A DNA stretch of 64,000 nucleotides from Apostichopus japonicus. Taxonomy: Eukaryota; Echinodermata; Holothuroidea; Aspidochirotida; Stichopodidae. The translations under genes were made by a program, and so were the position numbers. The notes below the pieces were generated by a model. The model was not told where the DNA came from and did not search any database. It worked only from the letters and a program-made list of their open reading frames with translations. This document shows positions 2,261 through 53,200 of this stretch, piece by piece. Within the stretch, counting starts at the first letter, position 1. Every line of letters begins with the position of its first letter. Location of the stretch: NCBI RefSeq assembly GCF_037975245.1, contig NC_092569.1, positions 33,255,668 to 33,319,667 on the forward strand, given 5' to 3'.

Positions 2261-2274
2261 CACGTGATCACGTG
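2261..2274. promoter_or_regulatory. Double E-box palindrome CACGTGATCACGTG
   Basis: This is a perfect 14-bp palindrome containing two CACGTG E-boxes. Related copies are at 5,111-5,124, 39,143-39,156, 41,125-41,138 and 58,687-58,700, always at the same place in the intron 1 repeat. CACGTG is the core site of bHLH-ZIP factors such as USF, MITF and Myc. A role as an intronic enhancer of the FReD genes is inference. Confidence 0.4.
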
Positions 2275-3816: not shown

Positions 3817-4705
3817 TGTCATCGTTGCCGATGTGTGCTATTTGCTTAGAGTGACCAAATGGAATTTCCGCTTGGTCGAGGTCGGGCAGAGGTCAATACT
3901 GCCCATTTACTAGTTGCCTTTCATATCCACCTCGATTTGCATACTTATGTAATCGATGCACAATTACGTAATCGATGTATACTTGCGTATTTTGAAGTGC
4001 ACATGCTTCATTCCTCTCCTGGCTCAGAGAGGCGTCGCATGTGTTCCTGCAGCACTGTTCCTTAGTATGTAAGTATTCTAATTGTTTTATATAAGTATTA
4101 AGGGGCTTGATATTGTAATTGTATATCTCTTTTAATATCGCATTATAGATATTTGCCTTTAATGTGATGTTGCTGCATGCTCGTGCCTGTTATTTATTAT
4201 TGCCTTTTTACTGTGTATTTGTTGTTTGCTTATTTGTAAGAGTATCTGGAGTAGAATATATCGCCAGAGGTTATTACTTTGTTGGTGTTCTGTACATTCT
4301 CCAGAAAGCCGCCGTTAACCCCAGAAAGCCGCCGTTAATCCCTGTAAACCCCTGTACACCGCAGTTTGTCGTGCTGTTGGTTTTGCCCGGTAACGATTGT
4401 AAGTTAATTATCAAGAATGTAATTGTCGCCAATCTTTATCTATGTCTTGTTTCATGTTACCAAATGTTATTTGTTATACTTCTTCCTTTTTGTGCATTGT
4501 TTTATAAGAAGAAATATAATGCATTATTATGTTATTATTGATTTGTTCAATTCATGTGTTTATTTCACCAATGTTTGTATATTATTGTATTGATATCTTT
4601 ACTTTCTAGTTTTCACCGTGGTCTTGTTCAAACCACGCGTGTGAATAAATGGGCTAAAACATACAACCACCTTGTTCAGCTTCATTGAGCGTCGTCTCGG
4701 TGACA
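3817..4705 (+). mobile_element. Solo LTR of an LTR retrotransposon
   Basis: This 889-bp block begins TGTCATC and ends CGGTGACA, so it has TG...CA ends with a short inverted TGTCA/TGACA. It interrupts sequence that is continuous in the duplicates, for example 40,731 'aagtcaatgtgaaacg'. Flanking AGTC (3,813-3,816) and AATC (4,706-4,709) look like a 4-bp target duplication with one change. A TATA-like box near 4,090 and AATAAA near 4,644 fit LTR regulatory layout. No internal coding region or second LTR is present, so it is a solo LTR. The short open frames inside it are not genes. Confidence 0.7.
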
Positions 4706-7700: not shown

Positions 7701-8242
7701 ATGAAGGTGTAATAGATAGGCGTATGTCCTGTTTTTTTTGTTTTTGTGATACATTGACCTTCGTACAACCTTCTTAACTCGATATTGTTTCTTCAGAATG
7801 TACTTTGCTTAATCGTACATTTCCTTTATTTTTTTGTTACATCAGATATCGTCAAGTACAAGAGTCAACGATTCAAGTAAGTTTTCGTTCTGTAAGGGTA
7901 ACGGTTAATATAAACTACCGAAAACTAAACAATTAACATAAGTTTGTTATCTAAATCATAATTCGGGAAAAAAAGTTTAATATAGAAAAGAACCATCTAG
8001 ATGTTCTTCATATGTGGTACTTTCTCCTATTTCAATTTGTACGATAAATAATAATTTACAATTCTCAATAATTTCCTCGTACTGTGTACTGAAGTAGTTT
8101 TAGCGCTGATTGGGGTAAATTGTAGATACTCAGCGATAATAAAACTGAAAGAAATACAAGTCATTAGTCAATATTTATTTCAAGCAATAAAAATAGTTCC
8201 GATTATATTTATTCATATTTGTTAGTAATTTGTGCAAAGTAA

Positions 8243-8292
8243 GTTGGCCTGACGTTTCGATCCTAGCAAGGTCTTCTTCAGAGGCTAAATGG
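8243..8292 (-). ncRNA. Hammerhead-ribozyme-like motif (Penelope-type repeat remnant)
   Basis: On the - strand this reads CTGAAGA, then a short stem-loop, then GATCGAAACGTCAGGCC. This matches the CUGANGA and GAAA core boxes of hammerhead ribozymes. The second core stem is imperfect in this copy. A sister copy lies at 44,411-44,456. Such motifs are known in Penelope-like retroelements. No reverse transcriptase is visible nearby, so this is at best a short remnant. Confidence 0.35.
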
Positions 8293-8778
8293 CAAGTAAC
8301 AGTAACATAAGGGACAAAACACGCACTTTGTTTAGACTTTGCATACTGTAGGCTTGTTCAATAATTTGGCACTTTTATATCTCAGGTCAGTGCTGATGAA
8401 CGTTAGATTGTTGTAAGCTAAAAAAAGGTCCAAATCATACCCTCATGTCTAGGAAAGCTATAACTAATCATGTTTGTTTATGTGACCATGTCGCCACAGA
8501 GTCACGGTAGTTCTTTGCGTTAGATTTTCATTTCAAATAAAATATACTTGCTTATATTAGCCTACATGAATATAAGCCTTAAATGATTGTATACATTTTC
8601 TTGTGGTTCATAGTAATTACCATGTTATGTTTACTGTGTTGTTTAAAAAAAAACTATTGCAATGTAGCCATGTATTATATTTCTCTTGAAATAATTCTTT
8701 ACATATGGAACTGTTTCTGCAAAAATTATGATTTTTTCTCATCTTTTTCTTTACATTATCGTGGTGCTAGACTTGCAG

Positions 8779-8943
8779 TATTTTCTATTCCAAACTCCGG
8801 AGTATCCAAGGGATTGTCATGAAGTACTTAACCAATGCTCTTCTACCAACGCCAAATCCGGTGTATACCTGATTAAACCTGACCAGTATCCGGAACCATT
8901 TCAGACATATTGTGATCACAACACTACATCTGGAGGTTGGACA
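8779..8943 (+). pseudogene. Copy 1 exon 2: start of first FReD
   Basis: The 165-bp exon is phase 0 at both ends and runs from an acceptor ending cttgcag to donor gtaagt. It encodes the N-terminal FReD signature PRDCHEVL, a GVYLIKPD strand and the SGGWT motif before the usual intron. The acceptor is chosen so that it splices in phase to the signal exons seen in the other copies. Confidence 0.8.
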
Positions 8944-9342
8944 GTAAGTAATATCTTTCAAGACACGAACACTTACAGTCACAGACGTTACTCTCGAAGA
9001 CACACTTTGTAGAACATATTGGAATTTTCAGTCCATTTTAGTTGTACAGTGTGTCGGGTGATATACCTTGTACGATGTATGAATATTTGAAGCATAATAT
9101 CGGAAACAAAACTACCCAGAGTAATTACATTGAATTTTAATACGATTAGACAACTTATTGTATGTGCATACCAATTGTAGTGATCTAGATATGTATAAAG
9201 ATAAGATATAACGCAACATCACAAAAGTGTTCTATCCTCTTCGTTTTTCTTGATGTGAGCCGCAAATTTTGGCTATAAGGTTTAGATCATAAGATAATGA
9301 AATTTATTCGTTAGTTGTCTACGTATCTTTTGAATTCTTCAG

Positions 9343-9605
9343 GTCATACAACGACGTGTTGATGGATCAATCGGTAATCGAACCTGGGACGAATACAAAA
9401 ACGGAATTGGTTTCTTAGGCAGTGAATTTCTGATAGGTAATGAAAAGTTAGCTCATTTGATAAACCAAAAGAGGTACCAGCTGCGCATCGAGCTAGAGAA
9501 TTATGCAGGTCAGTCATATTCATTGACATACGACAACTTTCGCATTGAAGGATGAATGGGGGAATTTTTCTATAACAAGTCTTGGTGTTGTCGATGGAAT
9601 AACAG
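9343..9605 (+). pseudogene. Copy 1 exon 3 with +1 frameshift
   Basis: It encodes VIQRRVDGS, EYKNGIGF and GSEFLIGNEKL, the typical FReD B-subdomain core. It is 263 bp against 265 bp in copies 2 and 3, because of a 3-bp deletion (lost Phe) and a 1-bp insertion near 9,547. The insertion makes TGA at 9,553-9,555. Confidence 0.85.
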
Positions 9606-9964
9606 GTTAGGCTTTTTTTTAAATTATTTTCTCCATATCTTTGTACTCAAAACGGAAATTGAGGAATGCCTAAAGAAAAGTTTCAATAGAGGAAATGATT
9701 ATCATACACAACTATATTGATTGATTCCCATAGTCGAATACTTGAAAATGTAATAATATTTTGTGTGTGTGACATAAATAAGTATAAGTTGAATGAGACT
9801 TAACAATAACATATCCCGCTTACATTTCATCCTGCGTTAACAATCAGCAAATGTTCCCAGCGGCCAGAGCATTACGATGGTAGCACGATGCGCTAATAAC
9901 GTAATGTAATAACAGTGAGTTAACACTTCAAGCTAGGAATAACTTGTGGTTTCAATTTCCCCAG

Positions 9965-10173
9965 ATTTACCCATTACCTGGTGCTCATCCAACAAGGATA
10001 ATTATGACAATACATGTGAAAGAACTTGTGAGAATCCGAATGATTGCGTCACACCTGATCCAGCGGATCCAGAGAGATGTCTTTGTCCAGAAAAGCACAT
10101 GGTTCTTGAAGACAGCTGCATACATCAAGAGCAATGTGGCTGTTACGTCCAAGAGGAAGGCGTCGTATTAGCA
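9965..10173 (+). pseudogene. Copy 1 exon 4: TIL domain
   Basis: This 209-bp exon enters in phase 1 and leaves in phase 0. The cysteine pattern C..NTCERTC...DC...RCLCPE...DSC...QCGCY fits a trypsin-inhibitor-like (TIL) module running into TILa. The reading frame itself is undamaged. Confidence 0.75.
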
Positions 10174-10554
10174 GTAAGTTTATTTGATGCCGTGCACAAG
10201 TCTTAATGTATAACATGAAAAGTATACTATAACATAACATCGTGGATTTCAATTGATTGACCTTACTTTTTATTTTATCTGTTATTAATTCTCATGATTA
10301 TTGATGATATTGACTTTCACTTCCATTTCGGTTTTACATGTTCTTGCAAAAGTAATTGAGACCTAGCAAAACTACAAGGCATCCAAAGCAATTACACCCT
10401 GAAGGATGAACTTTACCTCATATATTTAAAACCCTCACGACCATTTAGTAGTAGAAATTCAGTTTTACTCAAAGAGCGTTACCAAGCGTTGTACCAACTA
10501 AACATTGATTTTACTTTCACTGAAATTTGTCTTTTAAACATTTATCATTTCCAG

Positions 10555-10854
10555 GAGAGTGAATCTTACATTAATTCTGACTGTTCCTTACGGATAACTT
10601 GCAACAGTAACGTACTTACAAGTGAGAGTTACAGTTGTAGCGCAGACGCAACCTGCGAGAAGCAGAATGATGTCCGTAGATGTTACTGTAACGAATGGTT
10701 TGAAGGTGATGGTCTTACATGTACCCGTAGTGGACCTGTAGATTGTTCTGATCTGTACGCAGCAAACAGAACAAATAACGGAGCATATACCATTTATCCC
10801 GCTGGAAGCTCTGGTTTTGAAGTATATTGTGAAATGTCTAGTGGTGGTTGGACA
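10555..10854 (+). pseudogene. Copy 1 exon 5: TILa/EGF-like and start of second FReD
   Basis: This 300-bp exon is phase 0 at both ends. It encodes the second half of a TILa module, an EGF-like segment ending GDGLTC, then DCSDLY and SSGGWT of the second FReD. The frame is intact. Confidence 0.75.
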
Positions 10855-11106
10855 GTAAGTTTTAACTATTGAAAAAACAGAACTTTATCATGTTAACTTT
10901 TTATTTTCTCATATAACAGGACTTCTTTCACTAACATTTTAATTAAATAATTCAATTATTTGATTAAATTGATCCGTCTTCCTATCGCTTTAATCCAATC
11001 GGATATTGACCTTCACCAATCAATTTATCTAAATTATTGTAGTACAAATGAGATATTTCATATATTACTCACATCCAATCGATAAACTCGTTGATTTTCA
11101 TTCTAG

Positions 11107-11368
11107 ATTTTGCAACGACGTACAAGTAGCTCCGTCAGCTTTTATCGAAACTGGAATGAGTACAAAAACGGGTTTGGAATCCCACCAGGAGATCATTGGA
11201 TTGGCAACGATAAAATATACAAATTGACAAATCAAAAAGCCTACCAACTCCTAATAGAAAAGACAAACACGGAAGGTTCAACATACCACAGCCGTTATTC
11301 ATCTTTCAGCATCAGTAACGAGGGAGACAAATACCAACTCTCTTTGCGTGGCTACAATGGAAATGCTG
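11107..11368 (+). pseudogene. Copy 1 exon 6: second FReD, middle
   Basis: This 262-bp exon enters in phase 0 and leaves in phase 1. It encodes ILQRRTSSSVSFYRNW, GDHWIGNDKIY and the strands up to GYNGNAG. The frame is open. A gtatgt donor follows. Confidence 0.75.
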
Positions 11369-12612
11369 GTATGTATTGTGCTAAATGACAATCATACGCA
11401 GACTTGTAGTTATTACGTAATATCATTCTTGCATAACTACCTGTAGTCGTAATCACACTCTTGGATTTGTACTCGTACATATACTCAGGTCATGTTATAC
11501 ATCTAGTGTATATACTAATGTCAAACTGTATTAGACGTCGAGCTTTGAGTCCCGTGCGCATTGCTCATTAAACAATTGCCTTGCATTTTAGCACGTGTTG
11601 GTAAAATGATATATTGTTGTAACATCATAATATATCGTATCAACCACTCTTATATAGTTAGTAGCGTCTGCCTGCTCGCAAATGTCGAGCTTAAAACATT
11701 AAGGAATAATAACCAGTCTGGAAACCTAAGAACTGCTGCAGCATTTCAGCTTACTTTGTGATTGAAATATGTTATTAAAGAGTGAATTAAATTAATTTCT
11801 TAAAGAACGACTTTATCATTTCCAAACAAAAGAAAATTACGTTTCATTGTTTCATTTGACCATGCAATATTTGTTCATTACATTGATTGAGAGGCCAATG
11901 ATATTACAGTAATAACAACAAAAGTATCAAATAATTCGGACATTTTTTAAGAGATCAGTCGAGACGAATTGTATGTGCTACATTCTTAAAGAGCATTATT
12001 TGCCGCATTTCTTATCATTAGAAATGTTTAATCATATGGTAAACTATTAGTTTGTTGATATCAAATTAAAGTAATCCGTCAGTATGAAATATAGGACGTT
12101 ATCACGAGAGAAGATGATGACATGAATGATACAATCAAACACTTTATTACTCTCCCTCTTATTTGAACACCTAGCATATATTGAATAGTCAAAACTATAT
12201 ATTTCACAAAATGCCGAAAGTGAATGCTTCAACAAATGCACCTTTTACCATTCTGTTAATCTGACACACAGTACTATATTATGAATTAATATTTGTCGAA
12301 GGAAGAGAAATATTAATATGAATACAATATATACATAAAGAAATATATTGTAATACTTCACGATGTTCGCAAATGATGTCCGAGACGAATTGGCAGAATT
12401 GAAACCGCTCCAATAAAATACGCAAACATGACTCCAGCACAAAAATATTACGTAAGCCCAAACTTCAACGAACAAACAACAAACGCAATTATACCCGACA
12501 ACTACAGCAAACGACTCCAAAGTGACATAATAATGTCCATTTATAAAAAAGGAAAAAACTTCATATTTTACAAGAAAACACCTTCATTCATTATTCGCTA
12601 ATTTCCTTCCAG

Positions 12613-12965
12613 GTAACAATGCTATGGGAGCAAATTCAGGATATCGATTTAGTGCGCACAATGAAGACAATGATGGATCGAGTACCTTCGACAGTGCGGA
12701 AAAACACCGAGGTGGCTGGTGGTATCCAAACGATACTAGTACGGGCTCTACCAGCAACTGCTACTCATTCAGCGACCACGTAGCTACAGGTGGCTACGAT
12801 TGCTCTGGCTGTTATTGTTATTATTATTATTGTTGTTATTATTATTATTATTATTGTTATTATTATTATTATCATTACAAATGTTATAATTGCGATGGCT
12901 GTAGTGGTTATTATAATTATAGATGCTGCGCAAACAATAATCCGGTTTATGAGACAAATTTCTAA
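12613..12965 (+). pseudogene. Copy 1 exon 7: FReD C-terminus with Tyr/Cys insert, early stop
   Basis: After acceptor ttccttccag it encodes NNAMGANSGYRFS, the DND calcium-site region and GGWWYP. A Tyr/Cys-rich run follows (12,810-12,876 is a TAT/TGT microsatellite), ending at TAA 12,963-12,965. Sequence homologous to the missing C-terminus (SNLNG...MKI) continues out of use to about 13,080. A possible AATAAA is at 13,519-13,524. Confidence 0.8.
12810..12876 (+). repeat. Coding TAT/TGT trinucleotide repeat, copy 1
   Basis: The run of TTA/TGT triplets reads as Tyr and Cys in the gene frame. It differs in length and arrangement from the homologous stretch of copy 2 (49,985-50,009 and 50,058-50,085), as expected for a slipping microsatellite. 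Confidence 0.85.
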
Positions 12966-13080
12966 TCCTGCGGCTACTCCAATCTGAATGGGGATTACTC
13001 GTCAAACGATTACCGCGGTATCTTCTGGAAGAATCTTCACGGTTCTGATTGCGGAATAACAACAACAACAATGAAAATAC

Positions 13081-14900
13081 AATACAATAAGTCAATGATC
13101 AAAGTAGTGGATTTGAAGTCTTCAAGGTAACAAGGACAGGAAACGGTTGGCGATATAATAACATATATTAAACAAGGAAGTACATATCGAAGCTATAGTG
13201 GAAGTTTGCGTATTTGAAAGATCGAAGTGAAGGAAAGAGACACTAATAAGCCTTCTAAGGTAATACTATATTATGGGGCAAAATACAAAACAACGGTGAA
13301 CTATTTTACCAGTGGGACAGCCAGCACAGAGAACTCGATGGCATTTGATACTTTTTCAATAGTTTTCGATAATTGCATTGGATTCGAAACTTGTCTTTTA
13401 AAATGTTATCAGTAATAATGTCACTGAGAATACTATGAAATTATGCAATGAAATATATTAAAAAATACATCAGTATGCTGACTAGTCATGTTCCTTTCCA
13501 AATGTTGCGATTATATTGAATAAAAGTTAGTGGCAATGTAATGACATCGCTTAACTAGCAATGACATCGTATATGTTTCGACGTACTTTCTTGGATGTTT
13601 ATGCAGTACGTTTGAGAGATCAGTTCTACTTCCAGAACAAAGAGCACTGGTTTATGCACAAACAACACAACCAACCGAAATTACCATAATATGTCCCTTC
13701 TTATTCCTGAATCAATATCCTTACATTGAAAAAATTAGATGATACATTTGCTTTCGATAACGAAAGAAGCGTTTACATGCACGCGAAGTTTATCATATAT
13801 AACCAGGGTTCTGGGAGACTCCTTTAATTAGATATTTGCCAAAGGTACGTATTCAATCAGAGTCACTAACTTACCATTAATCTGCATAGCTTTCTTTCTT
13901 TCTCGCTCACCTCTATGTAAGAATATGATGTAGTGATTGTTCAAATGGTCATCTGCTTGATTGTCCCGACTATAGAAATTATCGTTCTCCGAATTCCTGG
14001 TTAAGTTCGATATACCACCTTATCATACCCAGAAACCCCAGCACGTATTTAAAGCGTACTACTGTGTTTGAAATATAACAAATATGAGTGATATTCCGAC
14101 ATGAATCCCCTTGAAACTTACAAATTTAAAGGAAAGTGTCATTTTCAAGAATTTCACAGAAACAGGAGGGCACAGGTGGGGGGAGGGAGTGGCACGGGAT
14201 GGCAGTGGCCTTTGTATTCCGACTCCACATCCCTGGTATTCAACAACATATAATAGAGTTTTGTTGATTATTTAAAGAACTTGCGTTTTTTCTTTAAGAT
14301 CACAAAACATGTTATATACTTAAGTTTTGTTGTCGCTTGCAAACCTTGGAGTTTCCCTCTACCTTCATTTTCCCGAATACATTTGAAGTAATTTCTAAAT
14401 AGGAAGCATGGGAGTTAAACTTGAGATAAAAGAAATAAAAACATTCAAAAATATAAAAGGAAACAGGTGCGGTCTTTATAAATATAAAAAGCAATTGTTA
14501 GAAAACATGAAATAAACAAAGTTGAAAGAGTGGAAAGATTATAACAAAGGCCCTCATGTCTATATTTTTCACTGACAGCAACCCACCAGCCCATTTCCAG
14601 CACCTACACCAGTGACAATATCACTCGGATATTTCTGAAATACAATTGCTTTGTGTTCAGTTATGGATGCCAAATACTACAAAGAAAAGAAAATGATATT
14701 TGAAATAATCTACGGTTGCTTTTCCCTTAATATGTACAAGCAATATCCAATAACCTAGAACAACTATTATAAATGAAGAAAGAGGTAAATAGAACTGACG
14801 TATTATCCTTACCGTCAGATAATTGCTGGTTCGTATTGACAGAATTGTTATCATTCACAAATATGTTTGGTGATGTATATACATGTTTAAAGCTTCGGTA
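13081..14900. other. 3' flank of copy 1, no gene seen
   Basis: The stretch aligns in patches with 50.3-52.4 kb downstream of copy 2, for example the 'ataaccagggtt' and 'gttgaaa(g/a)agt' landmarks. Short open frames here are not conserved between the two copies. Confidence 0.55.
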
Positions 14901-34251: not shown

Positions 34252-34390
<139 letters not shown>

Positions 34391-36786: not shown

Positions 36787-39700
36787 GTAAGTCTCTAAAA
36801 CATTAATTAAATCAAATTAATTTATTCAAAGTAAAAATTTACTTGTATAGTTTCTTTCACTAATTGACAATGTTTCAATATTTCATTCACTTTAGCTTTA
36901 AAAAAGACCTGTACCTTTTTCTACATATAAAATGAAACAACTGTCTACATGCGCTGACTTGTTACAACGAGTATTTGTAGAGAATATTACGATTGGTGAG
37001 CTATCGGCTCTATTCAACTGTAACTTTTTTGAAAATTAGATTTTTTTTACAAATGTTGTGCGTTATCGTGCATTTTGTATCTTTATTACTTTATTGCATT
37101 TAATATCTTGTCATTATATATTCTTTTTTAAATAGCCCCCCTATTCGTACGGTCCATTCTGTTCCATTTTGTTGATACCCAAATAGGAATTACATCATTG
37201 AGTTTTTGAGAAAAAAACAAACACGTAAAAAGAAAATCTGCAACAGACTTTTTACTCAGCAGAACATCTACCTTGTACATGTCATTAGCAGAGGCTAAAC
37301 TATTTACAATCAACACGAATCTGTTCGGAGGAAAACTTTGAAACACTTGGAAGAATACAAAATACATAAACATATTGAAATGTCTAAATATTATAGCTTA
37401 AATATATCCAAAATTCACACAATTCTGTTTCAAATAAAAACATGTTTCGCGTCCATCTTGAGTGCAAAGCCATAACGTTTTTGTAACGACAGCATATGAG
37501 TTTCGAACCCTACATAAGATTAAGTATCTATTAACTTATTCTAATGAAAATTTACTTGTGAATTAATCATTTTTTTTATCAAAGTAAATATAGCATGACG
37601 TTTAAAAGACGAATGCATAAAAACAACTTACAATTTCTTCATGATGACAATTTGTTCCGTCAAATCATAAAAGTATTCATTTTGTTCGAATACAGACTTT
37701 ATCTCTCCGATAAAATGAATAAAGTTGAGCTTTTGATTTTTCAAAACAACAAATATGCATTACGGAAATGATAATTGAACTTTTGAATACGTTTAATATC
37801 CAAATTGCTATATTTAAAGCGTTATACTGATATGATCAATCTGTTTGATGTAATGTTCGAAAGAAGCATAATTCCTAATACAAAGACGTTTAATTTGTCA
37901 ACATGTTGATGGTTTTTTCGTGTACATAAAAATGGCAGCTTTACGCTATAGAGCTGATTTTGTTTTTCTTTTTCAAAACGAACTATGAAAACCTCAGTAC
38001 TGTAACAGTTTATGTGTGCAATACAATCAGTTATAAACTACAAAAACAGTTCATAGATCAATTCAACATTAAAGCATTCCGAGCACTTTAAATTTTCGTT
38101 CACAAAAGTGTTAATATGTTAAGTAATACAATATATACCTGACACCAACTTGCACATTTGCTTGCTGGACAGGTTTATGTAAAACATAACACAATAAACG
38201 CATTCATGTAACACACTATTCAATACAGGCACGTAGGCCTACGTAAGAATATATATTGATCAGTTCATCATGCAAATACACAATAGGAAACAGAATGTAT
38301 CTTAAAATGATCAACGATTATTTGCCAAACTTCCCCAAAACACATTATATTTGATAAAGGTAATTTGGCAACCGATATTTGAAAGCCAAATAACACCATT
38401 TTATACTAGGATAATACTGAAAAATCGTTTCTAGTAGTTTTATGAAAAAAAAGTTTATCTTAATAAATCTGTATTTTGTCATGAAACTTTATTTTTCATG
38501 ACCAAACAATGTCAATTTTAATATTCCTTCTTATAATGTATTAACCCCTAAATTTCAATCGTTCATTTTTAACGCATGTCAATGTAATAATCATCAACTA
38601 AATATAAATATTCAAATAGTCATCTTATTTGTTATAAGTTTGCACGAAACGCTGCTTTAAAAATGAAAATAATAGTAAAGTACGACAATTAAAGACTAAA
38701 TGTAATGAAAAGTGATAGGAAATAAAGAATAAAGTATAATAAAAAAATCAATGTGAAACGTTATCAGTTCTGAAATTTGCCCTGTAGCATCAGAAAGATC
38801 GTCTATTAACCCACAATAATAAAAAGATTCTAGCTAAGATTTTTTTTTAAAGTTGTGCCAAACTAATGTCAAGAAAAAGGAGAACAGTAAACAGACTTGT
38901 TTTTTAACACTACTCTATCATCCCAGTCAAAACAATAATTAAATGTATATGTCTTCTTGCTGAATGTTTCCGTTGTAAAGTTCCGGATTCTGTTTTTCGA
39001 AAGAACAAAACTGTAGAAATGTTATAATTTATGATCTAGAGCTTTCTTGCCCCGTTGTCGACAAGACAGGCTTGAAGCCATCATTTCCTCGTTCTTCCTT
39101 GCAAAGTCTGTAATTATAAATATTGAGAATGTTACCGTGCAGCACGTGATCACGTGGACGAGAACGGCTATTATTTAAAATCGTGTTGTTTTTAGTGAGT
39201 CTAGACGAGGTTTTTATTGCCAAGAATTTCCAAAATGGATATAATTTTACAGAAACTCTGTAAATTGTTTTACAAGAAGCCTAAACGTTCTTGTAACAAG
39301 AGCATATGGGTTTCAAAACCCTACATATGATTACGTATCCATTAACCTATTCTAAGGAAAATAACTTTATGATTAACTTGTGAACTAATAATTTGTTTAT
39401 CAAAGAAAATATCGCATGAAATTAAAAATGCGAATGTATAAAACAAGTAACAAATTAAAAAAAAAACGACTTGAGAAAGTATTCCTTCACGATGACAATT
39501 TGTTCTGTCAATTCATAAAATAATTCATATTTTCCGATTACAACATCTCTCCGTCAAAATGACTGCCCAACTAGTATGATTAACTAAATAAAGTTCAGCT
39601 TTTGATTTTTTAAAAGAACAAATATGCATACGGAAATGATAAATAAACTTTTGAATAAGTTTAAGATCCAAATTGCTATATTTACAACTTTATACTGATA

Positions 39701-42700
39701 TGATCAATCTGTTGGATTAATATTCGAAAGAAGTATAATTCCTAATACAAAGACGTTTAATATGTAAACATACATTTATGGTGGGTTTTTCGTGTACATA
39801 AAAATGGCAGCTTGACGAAGTATAGCTTAATTTTTTTCAAACTAGCTAATAAAACCCCAGTATTGCAACAGTTTATATGTACAATATTTAACAATCAAAT
39901 TTAAACTACAAAAACAATAATAGAAGAATTCAGCATTAGAGCATTCCTAGCACTTTCAAATTCTCATTCACAAAAGTGTTAATATGTTAAGTATTACAAT
40001 ATATACTTGACAACAACTTAGAAATTTGCTCGCTGGCAGGTATCTGTAAACCATAACACAATAAACGCATTAATGTAGCACACTATTCAATACAGTCACG
40101 TAGGCATACGTACAAATACATATTGATCAGTTCATCATGCTATACACAAGAGGAAACAGAATGTATCTTAAAATGATCAACAATTATATGCCAAACATCA
40201 CCAAAACACCTTATATTTGATACAGGTAATTTAGCAACCGATATTTGAAAGCCATATAACACCGTTCTATACTAGCTCAATACTGAAACATCGCCTCCAA
40301 CGGCTTTATGTTTATGTTAATAATTCTATATTTAGTCTTTAGATGTTCATGACCAAGCATTATCAATCTTAATATTCCTTTAAAAATGTATCAACCACTT
40401 AATTTCAATCGTTCCTCTTACTATTTTGCAGGTTAAGGTAACACTGTTTGTTTTACAATGTCTTGTTTTCCCTCTGGCGGTCACAGCATTGTATTACACA
40501 ACCATTTGTTAATAATGTGTTCGATTCGGCCATGTGCGTTTATCATAGGGTTGATTTTGAGGCATGTCAATGTAATAACCATCAACTAAATTTAGATCTT
40601 CTAATAATCAACATATTTGTAAAAATTTTGCACGAAACGCCACTTTAAAATAAAATAAAAGTACGAAAATTATAACCAACATGTTATTGAAACGGATAAG
40701 AAACTTAGAATAAAGTATAATAAAACAAGTCAATGTGAAACGTTGTCAGTTCTGAAATTTGCCCTGTAGCATCAGAAAGATCGTCTATTAACCCACAATA
40801 AAAGAAATATTCTAGCTAAGATTTTTTTTTTAAGTTGTGCCAAACTAATGGCAAGAAAAAGGGAGAATAGTAAAACGAACTTGTTTATTAACATTACTCA
40901 ATCATCCCAGATAAAACAATAAATAAATGCACATATCTTCTCGCTGTTCGCTTCCGTTGTAAAGTTCCTGATTCTGTTTTTCCAAAAGAACAAAACTGTA
41001 AAAAAATGTTATGATTTAGAGCTTTCTTGTCACGAAGTCGACAATACAGGCTTGTATCCATCATTTCATCCTTTCTTCCTTTCAAAGTCTATAATTTAAA
41101 AATATTGAAAATTTTACCATACAACACGTGATCACGTAGACAAGAACGGCTATTTTTCAAAACCGTGTTGTTTTGAGGAAATCTAGATGATGTTGATTGT
41201 CAAGAATTTTCAAAATGGATATAACTTTACAGAAACTCTATAAATTGTTTTACGATAAGTCAAATTTGAAATTTGATGTGTCTGTTGAACAGTTACCGAT
41301 TATTTCTTTTAAAGTTAACAGATATCGTTTACTTAGGCACTTATATATTTTATCATAACTACCTTGACAAAAATATCTTTTGGGAGAAGAATTTTTGCAC
41401 GACTCGTATATCATTAGCTTCTTTCTCCCAACATACTTAATAAACGAATTATCGGATAATCTCAGCACATGTAAACCATGTAAGAGTTGTCCTGAACCAA
41501 TGCACAAATAAAATAATGACTAATATGTTATATTCAATAGGATAAATGTGATGTCTTACTTAATTAGACGGATCGGGCATTTTATGCAATATATCTGAAT
41601 TATTTCCTTCAACGTAGTATCTTACTTTCTTTCATACAAAGCTTTGCGCACAGGCGTCAAAATACCACTTCCTTTGATATCAAGAGAAGAAAAGAAAAAT
41701 ATGTGTCGTTATGATATTATGTGTTATCCTTGAATTAGGATACTTCAGAGAATTACGCCAACCAAAGGTTAAAAAAAAATATGCATGCTCGTTTTGGTAT
41801 GAACAAGTATGTGTTTTATGGGAGCTATTTGAGGGTTCACGTGGATGTTCTGGGCGTTCAAAAATGGTTTCTGTCTTGAATAGATACAGTAAACGTCATG
41901 TTGCCGAAAGAGTATCTGCTTTTGCTGATGTGCACAAAGGGTAATTAAAACAGTTTTCGTTATGAATACGCTAACTTGTATTTTGCTATACATGACGTTA
42001 TTTTGAATGAGCGTGAACCATAATTTTTAGCATTTCTTGTAAGAAGTTCGCAATCGTTCCATCACATGTGTTGTAAAGATTTTCATCCTTTTTATTAGTT
42101 TTAGGTAATTAACTTTAGATTACTTGAAAAACAATAATCATGAAGGAAATACAGTTTCCATCAAGTGTCACGCTTTGCCCAAATATTTTCTACTGCGATC
42201 TTAAACTTGTTGTTTTTTTATTTATAAAAATATATTTTATGACTTTAACCATGTTTTCGTAGGTTGCATATAACTCTGCATAATGTATGCACATTGAAAG
42301 CCTCAATTATTGTATACGTTCTGAGTACAATATTTCTAAAAAGATCGACATATTTTTTATGATAAAGCAAAAAGTTGTAACAACAAATGTCTTACTCACA
42401 TATTATACAGTTTTTAGGCGAACGAATGTTGACAATTAGCGTCAGTAGCTGGGGCGTTAAACGTGAACGTGTTTTGTGATGTTGAAGACAAAAAAGATCA
42501 ATTGTGTTGTGATGCTTGCCCAAGTCAATCAAATGGCTTTTACGTATCGAAACAAACGATATTCTTCTTCACAACGGATGAATTTTTATGCATTTTTGTT
42601 GCTCTTTTTTTTTTACATATTTTCAAAACTTGGCTATTTTCTTTAATGTTTTTTTTTTTAAGCTTTTGAGGGTAAATTGCACGTTGTCCCAGTGTATAAG

Positions 42701-45700
42701 TACCTCATTAGCGTAATATATCCAATTTCCCACTATAGATAGTTGCACTTAGCTAAATATACGAACACCACTAGGAGATCAAAGTTTACGGATCATGAAT
42801 TTTCTTCATTTTTTTCAAGAAGGACAGAATTAAATGTCTCATTGTGAAAATAGAATACAATTTGATGAATATTGTAACTAGAATACGTTTGCACATAGTT
42901 CGAAATTTCTGCTATAAGTTCATTTTTTTAATTTAATTTTCCAAACAGAAAATGTTAAATTATTGAATTGCATCGTTTCTGCATAAAAGAGACCTTTTCA
43001 TTTGTGGTAATATGTTACGGAAGCGTACGAAGGACACGAACACATTGCGAAACGTCACAAATCTTAAAGTCACCGTTTTTAAGAGATTGAGAAAATGTAA
43101 AAATACCGCTTTTGGTCAATAATATGCAACTTGGGAGCGTGCCAAACAACTTTGGCTGTCATCAAGTTTTCTTTTATATTGATAAAAGCCTAATTATATC
43201 AGCCAATTTTTATTTTTATAACTAAAACACACCTGCAATAAACAGCATTCATTACTGCCAAACAAAAATATTATGCGGGGAAATGTACAGTCGGATACAT
43301 GTTTTTTTTTTTTTTAAGGACGTGGGTAAGGTCTCAATTTGTTTTTTATTCCATGGATATCGCTGATGTTTGTACTCTTAATTTTCTTTCAATAATATAC
43401 TGTAAGTTTTCTTTTCGCTTTCTCAGATATTATAACATTCACATTTCGATTAGCATAATGCACAGGGAATTATTACTTTCATCTGTTTATCGTTGTTATG
43501 ATCGTTCAATTAAGATAGCGTATGGTGACCTATGATTGTTTTGTGTATAGTAATGAGAATAAGACGTATTAGAAGACATGCAAACAGACATATAATCATA
43601 TTTTCAAAAAAATAAAGTTATTCAATAAACCTACTTTTAATATTAGCTATGCTGATAAGCAGTTAAATCAATGTTATATAAATATTAAGATTGCAAAACA
43701 TGATATTACTGCTTAGAATTTGGCATGTGAATGTTTTTCCCGTTCTTATCACCTTTTTCTATAATAATTTACAAGTTGAAAATTGTTCATTTATCTGAAT
43801 CAAAAGCGAAATCAGATTTAATTTAATGAGCTATACAATTCTGTTCTGTATATTTAAACTTAAAATGATAGGATATGTTAAAGTGAAGGTGTAATAGATT
43901 GGAATATGTCCTGTATTTTGTTATACATTGACCTTCGTACAACATTCTTAACTCGATATTGTTTCTTTAGAATGTACTTTACTTAATCGTACATTCCCTT
44001 CAATTTGTTGTTACCTCAGATATCTTCAAGCACAAGAGTCAACGATTCAAGTAAGTTTAGTTCTGTAGGGGTAACGATTAATTTAACTACCGAGAACTAA
44101 CCAAATAAGAGAAATTTGTTATCTAAATAATAGTTCGGAAAAAGTTTAATTTAGAAAAAAAAACCTAGTTGTACTTTATATGTTTTACTTTCTCCTATTT
44201 CAATTTGTAAGATAAATAATGACTTACAATTCTCAATAATTTCCTTGTACTGTAGATTGAAGTAGTTTTAGCGCTGATTGAGATAAATTGTAGATACTCA
44301 GCGATAATAACACTGAAAGAAATACAAGTCGTTAGTCAATATCTATTTCAAGCAATAAAGATAGTTCCGATTATATGTATTTATACTTGTTAGTCATTTG
44401 TGCAAAGTAAGTTGGCCTGACGTTTCGATCCTAGCAGGACCTTCAGAGGCTAAATGGCAAGTAACAATAACAGAAGGGACAAAACACGCACTTGTTTAGA
44501 CTTTGTGTACTGTAAGCTCGTTCAATAATTTGGCACTTTCACATCTCACGTCAGTGCTGATGAACGTTAGATTGTTGTAAAACAGGTAAAAATAGGGCCA
44601 AATCATACCCTCATGTCGAGGAAAGCTATTACTAATCATGTTTGCTTCTGTGACCATGTCGCCACAGATTCACGGTAGATATTTGCGTTACATTGTCATT
44701 TCAAATAAAATATACTTGCTTATATTAGCCTCCATGAATATTAGCATAAAACGATTGAATACATTTTCTGATGGTTCATAGTAATTACCACGTCATGTTT
44801 ACTGTGTAGTTCAAACAAATCTATTGCAATGTAGCCATATATTATATTTCTCTTGAAACAATTCTTTACATATGGAACCGTATCTGCAACAGTTTTACGA
44901 TTTGTTCTCATCTTCTTCTTTACATTATCTTGGTGCTAGACTTGCAGTATTTTCTATTCCAAACTCCGGAGTATCCAAGGGATTGTCATGAAGTACTTAA
45001 CCAATGCTCTTCTACCAAAGCCAAATCCGGTGTGTACCTGATTAAACCTGACCAGTATCCGGAACCATTTCAGACATATTGTGATCACAACACTACATCT
45101 GGAGGTTGGACAGTAAGTAATATATTTCAAGACGTGAACACTTACAATCACAGACGTTACTCTCCAAGACACACTTTGTAGGAGACATTAGAATTTTCAG
45201 TCCATTTTAGTTGTTCAGTGTGTCGGATGATATACCTTGTACGATGTATGAATATTTGAAGCCTAATATCGGAAACAAAACTACCCAGAGTAATTACATT
45301 GAATTTTAATACGATTATAAAACTTATTTTTTCTCTGCACACCTAGGCTAGTGATCTAGATATGCATTAGGATAAGATATAACGCAACATCACAAATGGA
45401 TTCTGTCCTTTTCGTATTTATTCAGGTGAGCCGCAAATTTTGGCTATAAGATCATAAGATAATGAACTGTATCCGTTAGTTGTCTACATATTTCTTTTAA
45501 TTCTTCAGGTCATACAACGACGTGTTGATGGATCCATCGGTTTTAATCGAACCTGGGACGAATACAAAAACGGAATTGGTTTCTTAGGCAGTGAATTTCT
45601 AATTGGTAATGAAAAGTTAGCTCACTTGATAAACCAAAAGAGGTACAAGCTGCACATCGAGCTAGAGAATTATGCAGGCCAGTCATATTCATTGACATAC

Positions 45701-48700
45701 GACAACTTTCGCATTGCCGATGAATGGGGGAATTATTCTATAACAAGTCTTGGCGGTGTCGAAGGAATAACAGGTAAGACTTTTTTTAAATTATTTTCTC
45801 CATATGTTTGTAGTCAAAACGGAAATTAAAAAATGCTTACAGAAAAAAATCATATATAACTATATTGATTGTTTCCCATAGTCGAATACTTGAAAATGTA
45901 ATATTATTTTATATGTTTGACATAAATGAGAATACGTTGAATGAGCATTAACAATAAAAAATCCGGCTTACATTTGATCTTATGTAAACAATCAGCAAAT
46001 CTTCCGATCGGCCAGAGCACCACGGTGGTAACACGATTCTCTCATAAAAGCGAGTAAGCACTTCAAGCTAGGATAAACTTGTAGTGGTTTCAATTTTCCC
46101 AGATTTACCCATTACCTGGTGCTCATCCAACAAGGATAATTATGACAATACATGTGAAAGAACTTGTGAGAATCCGAATGATTGTGTCATACCGGATCCA
46201 GCGGCTCCAGAAAGATGTCTTTGTCCAGAAAACCACATGGTTCTTGGAGACAGCTGCATACCTCAAGAGCAATGTGCCTGTTACGTCCAAGGGGAAGGCG
46301 TCGTATTAGCAGTAAGTTTATTTGATGCCGTTTACAAGTCTTAATTTATAACATGAAAAGTGCACTATAACATAAAATCTTGGATTTCAATTGATTGACC
46401 TTACTCTTTATTATATCTGTTATTAATTTTCATGATTATTGTTGATATTGATATTCAGCTCTCTTATTCGTTTTACATGTTCTTGCAAAAGTCTTCCTAT
46501 TGAGACCTAGCAAAATAAGGCATCCAAAGCAACTACACCCTGAATAATGAACTTTACCTCACATATTTAAAATGCTCACGACCATTCAATAGTAGAAATT
46601 CAGTTTTACTCAAACAGCGTACCAAGCGTTGTACCAAATAAACATTGATTTTACTTTCACTGGAATATGTCGTTTAACATTTATCATTTCCAGAAGAGTG
46701 AAACTTACATCAATTCTGACTGTTAAACTTGTCGATTATCGCAATACATTTACAGATAACCGTGTGGCGTGTGCATCGCGGTTAAGCAGGGGCCATGGAC
46801 CCGCTTCTGTCGCCGTTGCAGGCAACCTGTCAATCAAGAGATGTATTTCATTTAGAAGGGAATCATAATATCACTTCTACGGGTGTGAATTCCCTTATCA
46901 ACCTTAAAAAATATTATAGGATACTTCTTACCTAAATAGTGCGTTTGAAACGTATTGTAACTTGAGTTTTTAGTTGCAAAAAACCTTCAAGGAATGCAAT
47001 ATTTGACAGCTACTTTAAACAAAAAAATTATGGCAAATTCCTAGACCCCAAACGTCAGAGTTGGCTGCAAAGATCGCATTAAACTTTCTAAAAAGTTGAT
47101 ACCCTTTGCCAGAAAAAGACATTGGAATTGGCCAGCAATTCTTTCAATGCTGTACATATCACTGTGACAACCGCAAATCCATAATTTATTTATTTTTTCC
47201 CCGCTGAATATCTTAAATTAGGAAGGCGAGTTTTACATCAATTCAAGATGTACACAGAGATCAACTTGTAGGAACAACCAGAGTATAGAAGAGAGTTACC
47301 AGTGTAGTGATCACGCAACATGTGATGAGAGGAACGGTGTCCGTAAATGTTACTGTAATGATGGCTACGAAGGGGACGGAGTGAGGTGCACCCACAACTG
47401 CTTCGTTGCTGCCAAAGGAAGTGTAGTAAGGGTAAGGTAGTTTGCATGCTTTGCCTGTAATTTATTTAGACCTAGCGAAAGTACATAGCATGGCAACGCA
47501 ATTATGATACACCCAGAACGATGAACGTTACCTAATATATTTAAAACGCTCATGACCGTATATTAGTGTTAATCCAGTGTGTCATCAAAAGTTGCTAAAA
47601 ATGTAACAAATTAACATATATTTTACTATCTTTGGAATATGTCGTTTTACATTTATCTTTCCAGGAAGGTGAATCATACATTAATTCTGACTGTTCCTTA
47701 CGAATAACTTGCAACAGTAACGTACTCACAAGTGAGAGGTACAGTTGTAGTGCAGACGCAACCTGCGAGGAGCGGAATGATATCCGTAGATGTGACTGTA
47801 TCGAATGGTTTGAAGGTGATGGTCTTACATGTGCCCGCAGTGGACCGAGAGATTGTTCTGATCTTTACACAGCGGGTAGAAGAAATGACGGAATATATAC
47901 CATTTATCCCGCTGGAAGCTCCGGGTTTGAAGTTTTTTGTAAAATGTCTAGTGGGGGATGGACAGTAAGTTTTAGCCATTGACAAGCAATAGCTTTCCAT
48001 GTTAAACTTGTGTTTTCTTATATGACAGGACTTCGTTCACTAACGTTTGAAGTAAATCATTCAATTATTTAATTAAATTGATCCATCTTCCTTTCAGTTT
48101 AAAACAAATCGGATTATTGACCTTCACCAATTAATATCTCTTACTTATTGTAGTACAATGAGACATTTTATACATTACTTACTTGCCATCTATAAACTAA
48201 TTGATTCCCTTTGTAGATTTTGCAACGACGTACAAGTAGCTCCGTCAGCTTTTATCGAAACTGGAATGAGTACAAAAACGGGTTTGGAATTCCAACAGGA
48301 GATCATTGGATTGGCAACGATAAAATATACAAATTGACAAACCAAAAAACCTACCAACTTCTAATAGAAAAGACAAACAGGGAAGGATCAACATACCACA
48401 GCCGTTATTCATCATTTAGAATCAGTAACGAGAGAGACAAATACCGACTGTCATTGGGTGGCTACAATGGAAATGCTGGTATGTATTGTGCTAAATGTCA
48501 ATCATATACGCAGACTTGAAGTTATTGCGTAATCTTATTCTAACATAACTACCTGTTGTCGTAATCATACTCTAGTATTTGTACGCGTACATATACTCCG
48601 GTGTTGTTATAAATCAAGTGTAGAGACTAATGTAGAACTATATACTATACCTCGTGCTTAGAGTCTCGTACTCAATGTTCATTGTATATTTGCTTCACAC

Positions 48701-50263
48701 TTTAGCACGTGTATGTATAATGATATGTTGTAACATCATGAAGAATCATAGCATCCAAGTTCCTATATAGTTTTGCGTCTAATTTCTCGCATTTTCATTC
48801 AGACTTTGTCGACCATAGAAGCATTAAGGAATCATTACTAGTCTAGAAACCTTAAAACTGCTGCAAAATTACAGCTTACTTTATAATTGAAAGAAATTAT
48901 AAAAGAGTGTTTTAAATTAATGTTATTATATATGACTTTAACGTTTCCAAACGAGAGGAAAATGAAGGTTCATTTGATCATACAATGTTCTTTCATGGAA
49001 TTGAATAACAGGCTAATAGTATTTAAAAAAAAAAACAACAAAAGTATCAAAGAAAAACATTATGTTGAGAGATCAGTCGAGACAAAGTGTATGTGTTACT
49101 TTCCGAAAGAGCATCACCTGCCTTAGTTATTATATGAATGTATAATCGTATAATAGGTAAAGCTCAATATTTGTCGATATCAAATGAAAGCAAAAACGTC
49201 AGATGAATGATAAGACGTTTAACGAGAGGATACGATGACAACGATGAGAAAATCAGACAAATCACAACTTTTCCTCTTATCTGAGAACCTAGTATTTTGA
49301 AGAAAGACAAACCTTTCCTTTTGAATAAGCCAAAAGTGAGTACTTAAAAGAATGAGCTGTTGACATTTCTGCTACTCTCACACGTAACTTGAAATCGCTT
49401 CACTACATAATATTCGTCGCAAAATTGAAGTAAAAACAACAATTATAATACAGATCAAAGAAATATACTTTAAAAGTGAACGTTAATATGACCTAAGGTT
49501 CCCAGACGAATTGTCAGAACCTTCCAGAAATAACTGGAACTTGGATTACTATCTTAAAATTTGTAAACTCCCAAAGAAAGCTCATAAACTCGTACATTAA
49601 AGCTCAAACAATTACGTAAGCCTAAACATTATCTTACACAGCAACATACGCACTGACAACCGATAGCTACAGCAAACGAACCTAGAATGGTTTAATAAGA
49701 TCTAATAAGGATATAAATGAATAAAAACTTCATATTTAACAAGAAAATACATTCCCTTACTATTCGCTAATTTCCTTCCAGGTAACAATGCTATGGGAGC
49801 AAATTCAGGACATCGATTTAGCACGCACGGTGAAGACAATGATGGATCGAGTACCTACGACTGTGCAGAAAAACACCGAGGTGGCTGGTGGTATCCAGAC
49901 GATACTAGTACGGGCTCTACCAGCAACTGCTACTCATTCAGCAACCGCGTAGCTACCGGTGGATACGAGTACTCTGACTGTAGCTGTTATTGTTATTATT
50001 ATTATTATTGTCCTTCTAGTCGTCCACATTATAAATGCTATAATTGTGATGGCTGTAGTTATTATTATTGTTATTATTATTATCATAATAGATGCTGCGC
50101 AAACAAAAACCCGGTCTATGAGACAAATTTCTATTCCTGCGGCTATTCCAATCTCAACGGTGACTACTCTTTCAGCGATAACCGCGGTATCTTCTGGAAG
50201 GATCTTCACGGTTCTGATTGCGGTATCACAACAACAACAATGAAAATACGGCCAAGTCAATGA
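36715..50263 (+). CDS. Secreted FReD-TIL-TILa/EGF-FReD protein, copy 2 (intact)
   Basis: Eight exons (36,715-36,786; 44,948-45,112; 45,509-45,773; 46,103-46,311; 47,222-47,431; 47,665-47,964; 48,217-48,478; 49,782-50,263) sum to 1,965 bp, 655 codons with the stop, all borders GT-AG and phases matching. Residues 1-24 are a signal peptide. About 28-167 are the N-terminal two thirds of a FReD lacking the P subdomain. About 168-237 are TIL running into TILa. Residues 238-307 and 308-365 are two TILa/EGF-like modules. Residues 370-654 are a complete FReD with the DND calcium-site region (513-515), GGWWY and SNLNG...MKIRP. Between Cys522 and Cys614 lies an 81-residue Tyr/Cys-rich insert. FReD proteins are secreted lectin-like recognition or adhesion proteins; whether this one acts in immunity or adhesion is open. 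Weakest point: direct splicing across the 8.2-kb first intron. Confidence 0.85.
37443..41250. repeat. Nested tandem duplication inside intron 1 (unit 2)
   Basis: Blocks of about 37,443-39,276 and 39,277-41,250 repeat the same landmarks and correspond to 470-5,215 in unit 1 without the LTR. Confidence 0.75.
44411..44456 (-). ncRNA. Hammerhead-like motif, second copy
   Basis: The - strand reads CTGAAGGTCCTGCTAGGATCGAAACGTCAGGCC, broken here at CTGAAGG / TCCTGCTAGGA / TCGAAACGTC. Stem II now pairs better than in the 8,243-8,292 copy, but the CUGANGA box has lost bases. It occupies the same place in the duplicated unit. Confidence 0.3.
44948..45112 (+). CDS. Copy 2 exon 2: start of first FReD
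   Basis: 165 bp, phase 0 at both ends. It encodes PEYPRDCHEVL, SGVYLIKPD and TSGGWT. The acceptor cttgcag allows in-phase joining to the signal exon. Confidence 0.85.
45509..45773 (+). CDS. Copy 2 exon 3: first FReD, B subdomain
   Basis: 265 bp, phase 0 in and 1 out. It encodes VIQRRVDGS, RTWDEYKNGIGF, GSEFLIGNEKL and ends SITSLGGVEGITG. The next exon is a TIL module, so the first FReD has no P subdomain exon. Confidence 0.85.
46103..46311 (+). CDS. Copy 2 exon 4: TIL domain
   Basis: 209 bp, phase 1 in and 0 out. It has ten cysteines in a TIL spacing (TCERTCENPNDC, RCLCPENHM, DSCIPQEQCACY) and passes into TILa at GVVLA. TIL modules are disulfide-rich units found in protease inhibitors and mucin-type proteins. 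Confidence 0.8.
46694..46726 (+). pseudogene. Truncated duplicate of the TILa/EGF exon with in-frame stop
   Basis: After a retained acceptor (tcatttccag) it matches the first ten codons of exon 6 (KSETYINSDC) and runs into TAA. The homology then breaks off. If used as a terminal exon it would give a short secreted form ending after the TIL domain. Confidence 0.6.
46727..47221 (+). other. Copy-2-specific intron sequence, origin unknown
   Basis: This stretch has no counterpart in copies 1 or 3, where only about 385 bp separate the TIL and EGF exons. I see no coding region or clear repeat ends in it. Confidence 0.45.
47222..47431 (+). CDS. Copy 2 exon 5: extra TILa/EGF-like module
   Basis: 210 bp, phase 0 at both ends, between ttaaattag and gtaagg. 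It encodes EGEFYINSRC, an EGF-like run with CYCNDGYEGDGVRC, and ends NCFVAAKGSVV, like the end of the TIL exon. Its symmetric phase allows insertion without breaking the frame. Copies 1 and 3 lack it. Confidence 0.75.
47665..47964 (+). CDS. Copy 2 exon 6: TILa/EGF-like and start of second FReD
   Basis: 300 bp, phase 0 at both ends. It encodes EGESYINSDC, EWFEGDGLTC, then GPRDCSDLY and the SSGGWT motif of the second FReD. Confidence 0.85.
48217..48478 (+). CDS. Copy 2 exon 7: second FReD, middle
   Basis: 262 bp, phase 0 in and 1 out. It encodes ILQRRTSSSVSFYRNW, GDHWIGNDKIYKL, QLLIEK and GYNGNAG. Confidence 0.85.
49782..50263 (+). CDS. Copy 2 exon 8: FReD P subdomain with Tyr/Cys insert
   Basis: It encodes the calcium-site region GEDNDG, DCAEKHRGGWWY, then 81 residues containing CYCYYYYYC, KCYNCDGC and YYYCYYYYH. 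The family ending CGYSNLNG...GIFW...TMKIRPSQ and TGA (50,261-50,263) follow. A typical FReD has only a few residues between GGWWY and that second Cys. A poly(A) signal AATAAA is at 50,696-50,701. Confidence 0.85.
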
Positions 50264-53200
50264 CAACAGAAGCAAATTTGAAGTCTACAACGTAAAATGG
50301 ATAGGAAACGGTTGGCGATGTTATAAAATAAATTAAATAACGTTGAACGTATTGAAACTAGCAGAGTTTGTGTAACTGGGAGATTTAGGCGAAGAAAAGA
50401 GACACCAATGAACCAATGACCCAATGAACATTTTATAGTCATTACACCATGTGCATTATCCTTAAAATTGATCTGGTATACCGAAAGGAGATCATGTGTA
50501 GACTTGCAAAGATATAATATGTTATGAGGCAAAAAACCAAATGACGGTGAAACATTTTACATTGGGAGCAATTAGCTCATGGAACTCCATGACGTCTGAT
50601 ACCCAGTCATTATCCGATAATTGCATTGAATTAAAACTGTGATTATTAAAATGATACCTTTGATGATAACACTGAGAATACTGTTCCATTATGCAAATAA
50701 AAAATATATGAAACATAGAACCAATATCCTGACTAATATTTTTGCCGATTATATTGAATAGAGGCAAATGGCAGTTTTATGACATCGCCGAACTAGGAAC
50801 GATATCTGATACGTTTCGATATATGCCTACTTTCTGGGTTGTTTAGTTACAATGTGTGAGTGATCAGTTCTACTGACCAGTAGCCTCCATAGTACAGCGT
50901 ATTAGAACATTCACAAAGAACACAACCATCTAAAACTACCTTAATATATATAATGTATTCACAGTTGACTATCCTTATAGTGGCATCATAAAGTCCTACA
51001 TTAGCTTTAGATTATGACAGAAGCTGTTAATTCACACACAGTTGGTCATAGGCTAAATAACCAGGGTTTTAGGCCTCTCCGTTTATAACGTATCTGCCAA
51101 AAAACACATACTCCACCAGACTCACTAACTTTGTCAATTGTCCGTTTGCTTTCTTTCTCTCTAAATCATATCCATCAACCATGTAAGAATATGATATACT
51201 ATGTATTTACTTGGCCATCTGCTTTTCCGGAATACATAATTGGTCGTTTTCCAAATTCCTAGTGCTATAAACACCTGATCATCACCGCCAACCCCCTTGC
51301 AGTCCACACTTATGATGGACAGTGTGTTGTTTATAACGCGCTTGGTTGGGAAAGTCTACCGCCACGAAACCCCTTGAGAATTTATGAAAAAAGGCACATT
51401 TCAATATACTCAAAGAAAGGGAAGTGCACAAATGGGGGGGGGGGCTGGTGGTAGAGGGGGCGGGGCATTATCCTTTATATTCCAGCTGCACATCGCAGGT
51501 ATTCAAGAAGAGATGACGGAGTCCCGTAGATTACTCAGTGATCTGGTGTTTTCATTTCATTTAAGATTACAACAATGAAAGAAGAGTTTCTTTTTAATTT
51601 CACAAAAGGTACACTTTTGATTTATGAAAATGAGATCCTTTGTCGGCCTTTTTAAACGTGATATCAAAGTTTCTTTCACTGTAGGGAAAGAGAGGCGTGC
51701 AGGGGTTGCGACGCTACGCGTAGTTTGAATATATGGCAAAACTACGAGGCAAACGATATTGGCAATGAAACAAAACATGATAATATGTCAACTATCTTGT
51801 CATAGAAATGAGACAACGAATAAATAAATAAATGAAACAAGCTGTAAGTTTTATTCACCGCAGTTCTGTTATTCATGGAAACATTCAGCTTTTTAATTTA
51901 TATCTATAACTCATAATAGTTAAATTGAGAAAATGAAATAAATGCATTAACTAAAAAAAAAACATAACAAATAAAATGAAACAAAAATAAAGGCAACTGT
52001 AAGATAACAGCAAATAAACAAAGGTTGAAAAAGTATAAAGTTTATAACAATGGCTCCAATACTCACATATTTCACTGACAGCACCCACTCTCTCTATCCT
52101 ATTAGACCAGTGAAACTATAACTAGGATTTGTTTTCTGAAATATCATATCATTTATTGATGTCAGAAACTACAACGAAAAGAACATGCGATAGGAAAAAC
52201 CGTCTGTTATTTATCGTCGACTTACGTTGAACAAATATAACAATTGAGAAATAAGATAAATATACTCGTTGCATCATCCTTGTCAATGCCGTAGCATCAT
52301 CGTTGCTTCGTGTTGACATAATTGTTCTTATTCAAAATGGTTTGAGGTGATTCATTTACATGTATAGTGTTCTGGTACTAATTCAACTTGAAAAAAAAGT
52401 TGGGCATATTCGGACAATTAACATTTACACGGATCTTATTTTCATCTCATTGAATGAGATGATATAGCTTTGTTCTCACTTCAGAAGCTTTATGGGTATA
52501 GTTTGGAACATTACCAGAGCCGCTTCCAATACCCCTTATCCCTCACTCATTAGCGCATGAGAGAAAGTTATAACAATGTATACGGAGTTCCGACAATGTA
52601 ATCTAATTGAATACATGATTGAATTAATATTGACGGATATTGAAAAAATATAGGTGAAAAATATGTTTGACTAAACGCTTATCAAAACACAAATAAATAT
52701 TTCATAGACTATATGATGTTAAGGTTCTCTCCCGATCCGTATATCATCCGGATAGATTGGGCCCTTGTAATTGTATGTTCTGTTAGCACTTTAACAAAAC
52801 CATTTCCAATATCCCTTATTTCTCACGTCAATCTCAATCACCATTGTACAACTTCACAAGTTATATACAAATTTAACGTATACGACACTTGAAAATCAAA
52901 GTTCTTTATTCACTTATATTTGATGGACAATACACAAATACATTAATATTCATTTTTATATCCTAGTATCGGTGAAAGTCGTAATATTTCTGGTGACAGT
53001 AACATTTGAAAATCAGCCCTGTAGTAAGACTGCAACTGGTCACTTCTGCACCTTTCAAGGTTATTAGTGTAGAACATTAGCCTGTGTGTTACGTAATCAA
53101 TTCGCCAAGCCTAGCAATGGGAAAGAGCATGGAAAAGTCACCTATTCAGCTCACATTTCCCCCGATCTACTGCGAGAGCCTATTAAAATGCCCGAGGCAG

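Follow-up and report, generated by a model that had tools for sequence, protein, structure and literature searches.

FReDs are recognition folds in wide use across animals, and the loop with which this report is concerned joins the FReD calcium site to the ligand site. In FIBCD1, according to the part of the published account available to us, a bridge between Cys401 and Cys414 (13 apart) links the calcium site and the acetyl pocket; the acetyl group is held by the backbone NH of Cys414 and His415, and the pocket is lined by Tyr405, His415, Tyr431 and Trp443 (PMC3908420). Tandem arrays of FReD genes have likewise been described in the FREP clusters of the sea cucumber Apostichopus japonicus (21 tandem genes), and the accessible portion of that report mentions no insert of the kind presented below (PMC5638244). 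No published account of such a FReD insert was found among the titles and abstract openings listed, a scope that does not prove it to be unpublished.

Here we describe a tandemly duplicated gene in which this loop is interrupted by 81 additional codons. The reading that we favour, with a probability of about 0.6, is a true and old 81-residue coding insertion with a core grown by slippage, which would form a surface loop if expressed, in a FReD family undergoing birth-and-death.

Gene cluster and domain architecture

The window, that is, the whole stretch of DNA analysed, comprises 64,000 bases of animal-type genomic DNA with 34% GC. Comparison between copies with tblastn delineated one gene in three tandem copies, all on the + strand: copy A (matches at 8797-13082), copy B (44948-50263) and copy C, which runs from 61899 past the window end and has its last exon outside the window. 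The repeat unit is larger than the exons, with 1-14039 around copy A corresponding to 36982-51295 around copy B, and the repeat shared by B and C beginning at 34055. A perfect TA microsatellite of 131 bases (34256-34386) is situated between copies A and B.

Copy B has the Pfam domain order FReD1 (first two exons only)-TILa-EGF-EGF-FReD2, and its exons show GT-AG at the intron borders wherever introns flank them. When joined, they exceed the Fibrinogen_C (PF00147) cut-off of 22 with both FReDs (E 1.1e-84, 284.1 bits). The first FReD1 exon (44948..45112, +) was delimited by tblastn and sequence borders, its start being taken from the acceptor and approximate; identity among all three copies reaches 100% at 44944-45003. 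It is followed by the second FReD1 exon (45509..45773, +), downstream of which no P-subdomain exon was seen, by the TILa-domain exon (46103..46311, +; Pfam PF12714 and splice sites) and by the first EGF-like exon (47222..47431, +; Pfam EGF_3). The second EGF-like domain shares an exon with the start of FReD2 (47665..47964, +), and the FReD2 middle exon lies at 48217..48478 (+), both being placed by tblastn, Pfam and splice sites. The last exon (49782..50263, +, including the stop) encodes the P subdomain of FReD2 together with the insert. The EGF-like exon at 47222-47431 appears to be extra, as a separate counterpart was not found in copies A and C.

A search for a second P-subdomain exon elsewhere in the 64-kb window returned none. 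None was found after FReD1, which is directly followed by the TILa exon with its phase-1 border (45509-46311), an order that is the same in copies A and C; exon shuffling seems to have replaced or removed the final exon of FReD1. Entry into the FReD2 last exon is in phase 1 as well (exon phases were taken from the sequence), so splicing of FReD1 onto it would be possible in principle.

Upstream of the first FReD1 exon, from 42165 on, three-way conservation identified no signal peptide or first exon, and so the proposal that the gene product is probably secreted draws on its domain type. Two segments in the conservation scan upstream of FReD1, 43392-43449 and 44765-44868, did pass the cut.

An 81-codon insert in the P subdomain of copy B

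The insert occupies 49895..50137 (+) in the last exon of FReD2, between GGWWY and CGYSNLNG, and its 81 codons include 11 for Cys and 20 for Tyr (TAT 17, TAC 3, TGT 7 and TGC 4). An earlier, sequence-only reading of this DNA had reported 81 residues between these motifs in the second gene copy, our copy B, and that length holds; the range it gave, 49879-50142, also takes in GGWWY and the second loop cysteine, so that the insert proper is somewhat shorter. Both loop cysteines of copy B are present and lie 92 apart, as had been proposed, whereas those of the FIBCD1 type, going by the part of that report available to us, are 13 apart. The densest core, also much as first described, covers 49979..50098 (+) and has 25 Tyr or Cys among 40 residues (10 Cys, 15 Tyr), mostly from TAT and TGT codons; an equally dense 40-residue stretch, obtained with another tie-break, starts at 49964 (8 Cys + 17 Tyr, 25/40).

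Database comparisons place the insert precisely within the domain. The Pfam Fibrinogen_C match is split at it, with profile positions 141-175 before the insert (25.1 bits) and 176-221 after it (23.8 bits), so the positions that abut in the profile are 175 and 176. A search of the PDB with the last exon matched tenascin-R on both sides of the insert: its residues 177 and 178 are adjacent, and in the query 79 residues separate the two matches. Both comparisons bear out the claim that family members have few residues at this point. The PDB search with the whole of FReD2 yielded 68 distinct sequences at E up to 1e-10, and in the best 60 of these 68 the top matching stretch stops at query residue 166-203, which corresponds to the start or interior of the insert. 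On its own, the insert has no match in Pfam at E up to 1. AlphaFold applied to the last exon alone gave a mean pLDDT of 32 and no usable structure.

Apart from the insert, copy B resembles known FReDs. Positions 2-221 of the 221 in PF00147 are covered, FReD2 matching 2-177 and the post-insert piece 176-221, and both the calcium-loop Asp-x-Asp and NLNG...MKIRP are present. The best PDB matches are angiopoietin-1 (E 1.2e-42) and ficolin-1. Copy B differs from the family in the 81 extra loop residues and in one extra residue of the calcium loop.

Composition by itself is a poor guide at this locus. Outside the gene copies, microsatellites also produce stop-free readings rich in Tyr and Cys, namely at 28701 on the - strand (22/40, 6 Cys) and at 34253 (21/40, no Cys), and similar readings from microsatellites elsewhere mean that composition alone is no evidence of a protein feature. 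What is above chance is that the insert sits inside the Fibrinogen_C domain and that its ends are conserved in the manner of an exon.

The origin of the sequence was sought both within and beyond the window. Elsewhere in the window, the matches listed for the insert ends beyond copies A and B were just 10-11 bases long. Among 27 viral-contig and 185 genome-contig pattern matches, from collections that are not animal, no relative was confirmed. Derivation from duplicated neighbouring P-subdomain sequence was also considered and is not relied upon: a 23-column match in copy B had a score that 2 of 2000 dinucleotide-shuffled sequences also reached, but these regions had been picked after inspection, and repeating the test on copy A gave nothing (score reached in 329 of 2000 shuffles).

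Evidence against a missed intron

Since normal FReDs have almost no residues at this position and the core is repetitive and AT-rich, the insert might be an unrecognised intron whose removal gives an ordinary P subdomain. The last exon of copy B contains 26 GT and 21 AG dinucleotides, from which 12 GT-AG pairs were weighed (donors 49881, 49888, 49891, 49908, 49949 and 49959 with acceptors ending at 50091 and 50122). Only 3 of the 12 keep the frame. Two of them introduce a stop where the flanking parts meet, and the remaining pair, 49949-50122, is weak, with a donor of 5/9 and an acceptor of 47% pyrimidine; its use would still leave 23 extra residues. Between copies, moreover, the insert ends diverge as an exon does (see below). 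With no good GT-AG pair among those weighed and with ends that diverge like coding sequence, the insert is read as exon, and we consider a missed intron very improbable. The sequence-only reading had named transcripts that splice out this segment as the finding that would overturn it, and the GT-AG pairs lend such splicing little support.

The same insert in copy A

The insert had been attributed to the second copy. It is indeed present there, yet not there alone: copy A carries a homologue at 12726..12968 (+), also of 81 codons including one stop, with 12 Cys and 24 Tyr. By tblastn, the last exon of B and copy A share 75.5% identity over 184 columns, some of them intronic. In both copies the insert is flanked in the same frame on both sides, and the motif HYKCYNCDGCS within it is identical. 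The occurrence of the same insert in copy A indicates that the insertion is older than the A/B duplication.

Triplet repeats can be mis-assembled, and an assembly or sequencing artefact at the repeat was considered as an alternative. Two diverged copies 37 kb apart nevertheless have the same insert, frame, non-repeat ends and internal motif, and an artefact is accordingly held to be extremely improbable.

Between A and B the TAT/TGT core has changed far more than the ends, which are 93% and 92% identical, with no net change in length. Alignments differ on the route to this equal length: there are 0 gaps at the nucleotide level, 3 compensating gaps in protein-guided alignments (whole codons by construction) and one gap of 6 bases in blastn. 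The description of the loop as slippage-prone is compatible with this pattern of a changed core, conserved ends and a maintained frame.

Divergence, selection and the state of the copies

The non-repeat ends of the insert, counted with the second loop Cys codon and without the 123-base core, differ between A and B at 9 of 123 sites (5/72 + 4/51). The rest of the P-subdomain coding sequence differs at 21/217 sites, the adjacent upstream last intron at 340/1214 and the 3' flank at 256/838. The insert ends are thus distinct from the intron (Fisher p 7e-8) and the 3' flank (5e-9), and not from the other coding sequence (0.55); their rate of change is that of coding DNA. An intron so diverged argues against recent conversion of a long block, while gene conversion confined to the last exon could be a source of the low divergence of the insert ends.

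Shared exon pieces gave dN/dS values of 0.37 for A-B (4 pieces), 0.33 for B-C (5) and 0.22 for A-C (4), the second FReD1 exon of copy A being excluded for its frameshift, and the exons of the family look to be under purifying selection. Between A and B, dN/dS of the P subdomain is 0.71 before the insert and 0.11 after it. For the insert ends it is 0.31, from 4 synonymous and 5 nonsynonymous changes (the copy A stop among the latter), with an approximate Fisher p of 0.08 that is not significant. The core has a dN of 0.23 and a dS of 0.40 (dN/dS 0.57).

These values also bear on a rival explanation, in which neutral microsatellite expansion took place in a decaying tandem array, and the insert, translated now or in the past, is without function in two copies that are both becoming pseudogenes. 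In copy A the last exon has a stop placed two codons ahead of the second loop Cys, Ser stands in place of the first loop Cys, and the frame of FReD1 shifts near 9539-9549; with one of the two copies seen to carry the insert broken in this way, a relaxed or drifting gene is conceivable. The high divergence of the core and a post-stop stretch of copy B that is open only in another frame point in the same direction. On the other hand, the exons seen in copy B are free of internal stops, dN/dS of the compared exons is well below 1, and the insert ends are conserved as much as the surrounding domain. We regard decay as possible, if doubtful, and retain the old coding insertion as the preferred reading. 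The five pieces compared in copy C are likewise without a stop.

The C-terminus of copy B adds some complexity. The frame is open across the insert up to ...MKIRPSQ* at 50263, so that the earlier statement of a frame kept to the normal C-terminus is correct as far as MKIRP; from the region of the stop, however, a different frame is open for about 26 codons (50256..50336, +), in a stretch similar to 13091-13171 in copy A. The two stretches, VNDNRSKFEVYNV... and VNDQSSGFEVFKV..., are alike at 14 of 26 residues with aligned stops, and at the DNA level identity is 78% across 73 sites, which is intermediate between coding sequence and flank. The stretch may once have been a C-terminal tail; copy B would then be shortened.

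Predicted consequences for the binding face

The loop had been described as lying next to the calcium and ligand sites, and this is supported by its correspondence to the loop of FIBCD1, TL5A and ficolin, which is bounded by the Cys401-Cys414-equivalent pair in the available part of the FIBCD1 report (PMC3908420). Compared with that same partial account, EDNDG of copy B aligns with the calcium-site residues Asp393/Asp395, with one extra residue after it, and marks a predicted calcium site. The His415 and Tyr405 of the FIBCD1/TL5A type, as given there, are replaced in copy B by Gly and His, judged by spacing from the cysteines, and in copy A the first of the two loop cysteines is Ser. Position 405 is the weaker sign, since ficolin-1 has Phe there, and angiopoietins have Cys-Gly at the second loop Cys just as copy B does. 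His at 405, Gly at 415 and an insert that directly precedes the second Cys make a FIBCD1-type acetyl pocket unlikely in the copy B protein.

Under the favoured reading of an old coding insertion, the core would have grown by triplet slippage, which would maintain the frame and, in this frame, supply Tyr and Cys. If copy B is expressed, the insert would then form a surface loop with several disulfides on the face by which other FReDs bind their ligands, and an acetyl-type pocket would give way to a contact or cross-linking surface rich in Tyr and Cys. The 11 extra cysteines, together with one more in HGSDCG, would probably make this a multi-disulfide loop; from composition alone, tyrosine cross-linking and a part in adhesion may be possible. 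The cluster as a whole would be in birth-and-death, with copy A broken and copy B maybe lacking its C-terminal tail.

The sequence-only reading went further and suggested a new way to diversify a lectin-like or adhesive protein. In the strongest form of this idea, as we would put it, a slippage-prone TAT/TGT array would have been placed and kept at the FReD binding face as a germline device, with in-frame triplet changes creating new disulfide and tyrosine patterns in the duplicated family; we consider this improbable.

If it is tolerated, an insert of 81 residues and of this age would show that the loop can accommodate an entire additional disulfide-rich module and that variation at a binding face can arise from a microsatellite. 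Should drift be all there is, the locus would be a clear case of triplet slippage surviving in a conserved domain during the birth-and-death of tandem genes.

As a minor observation, the core contains a near-repeat of two 31-base units (49978-50008 and 50053-50083) that are 87% identical, perhaps an internal duplication.
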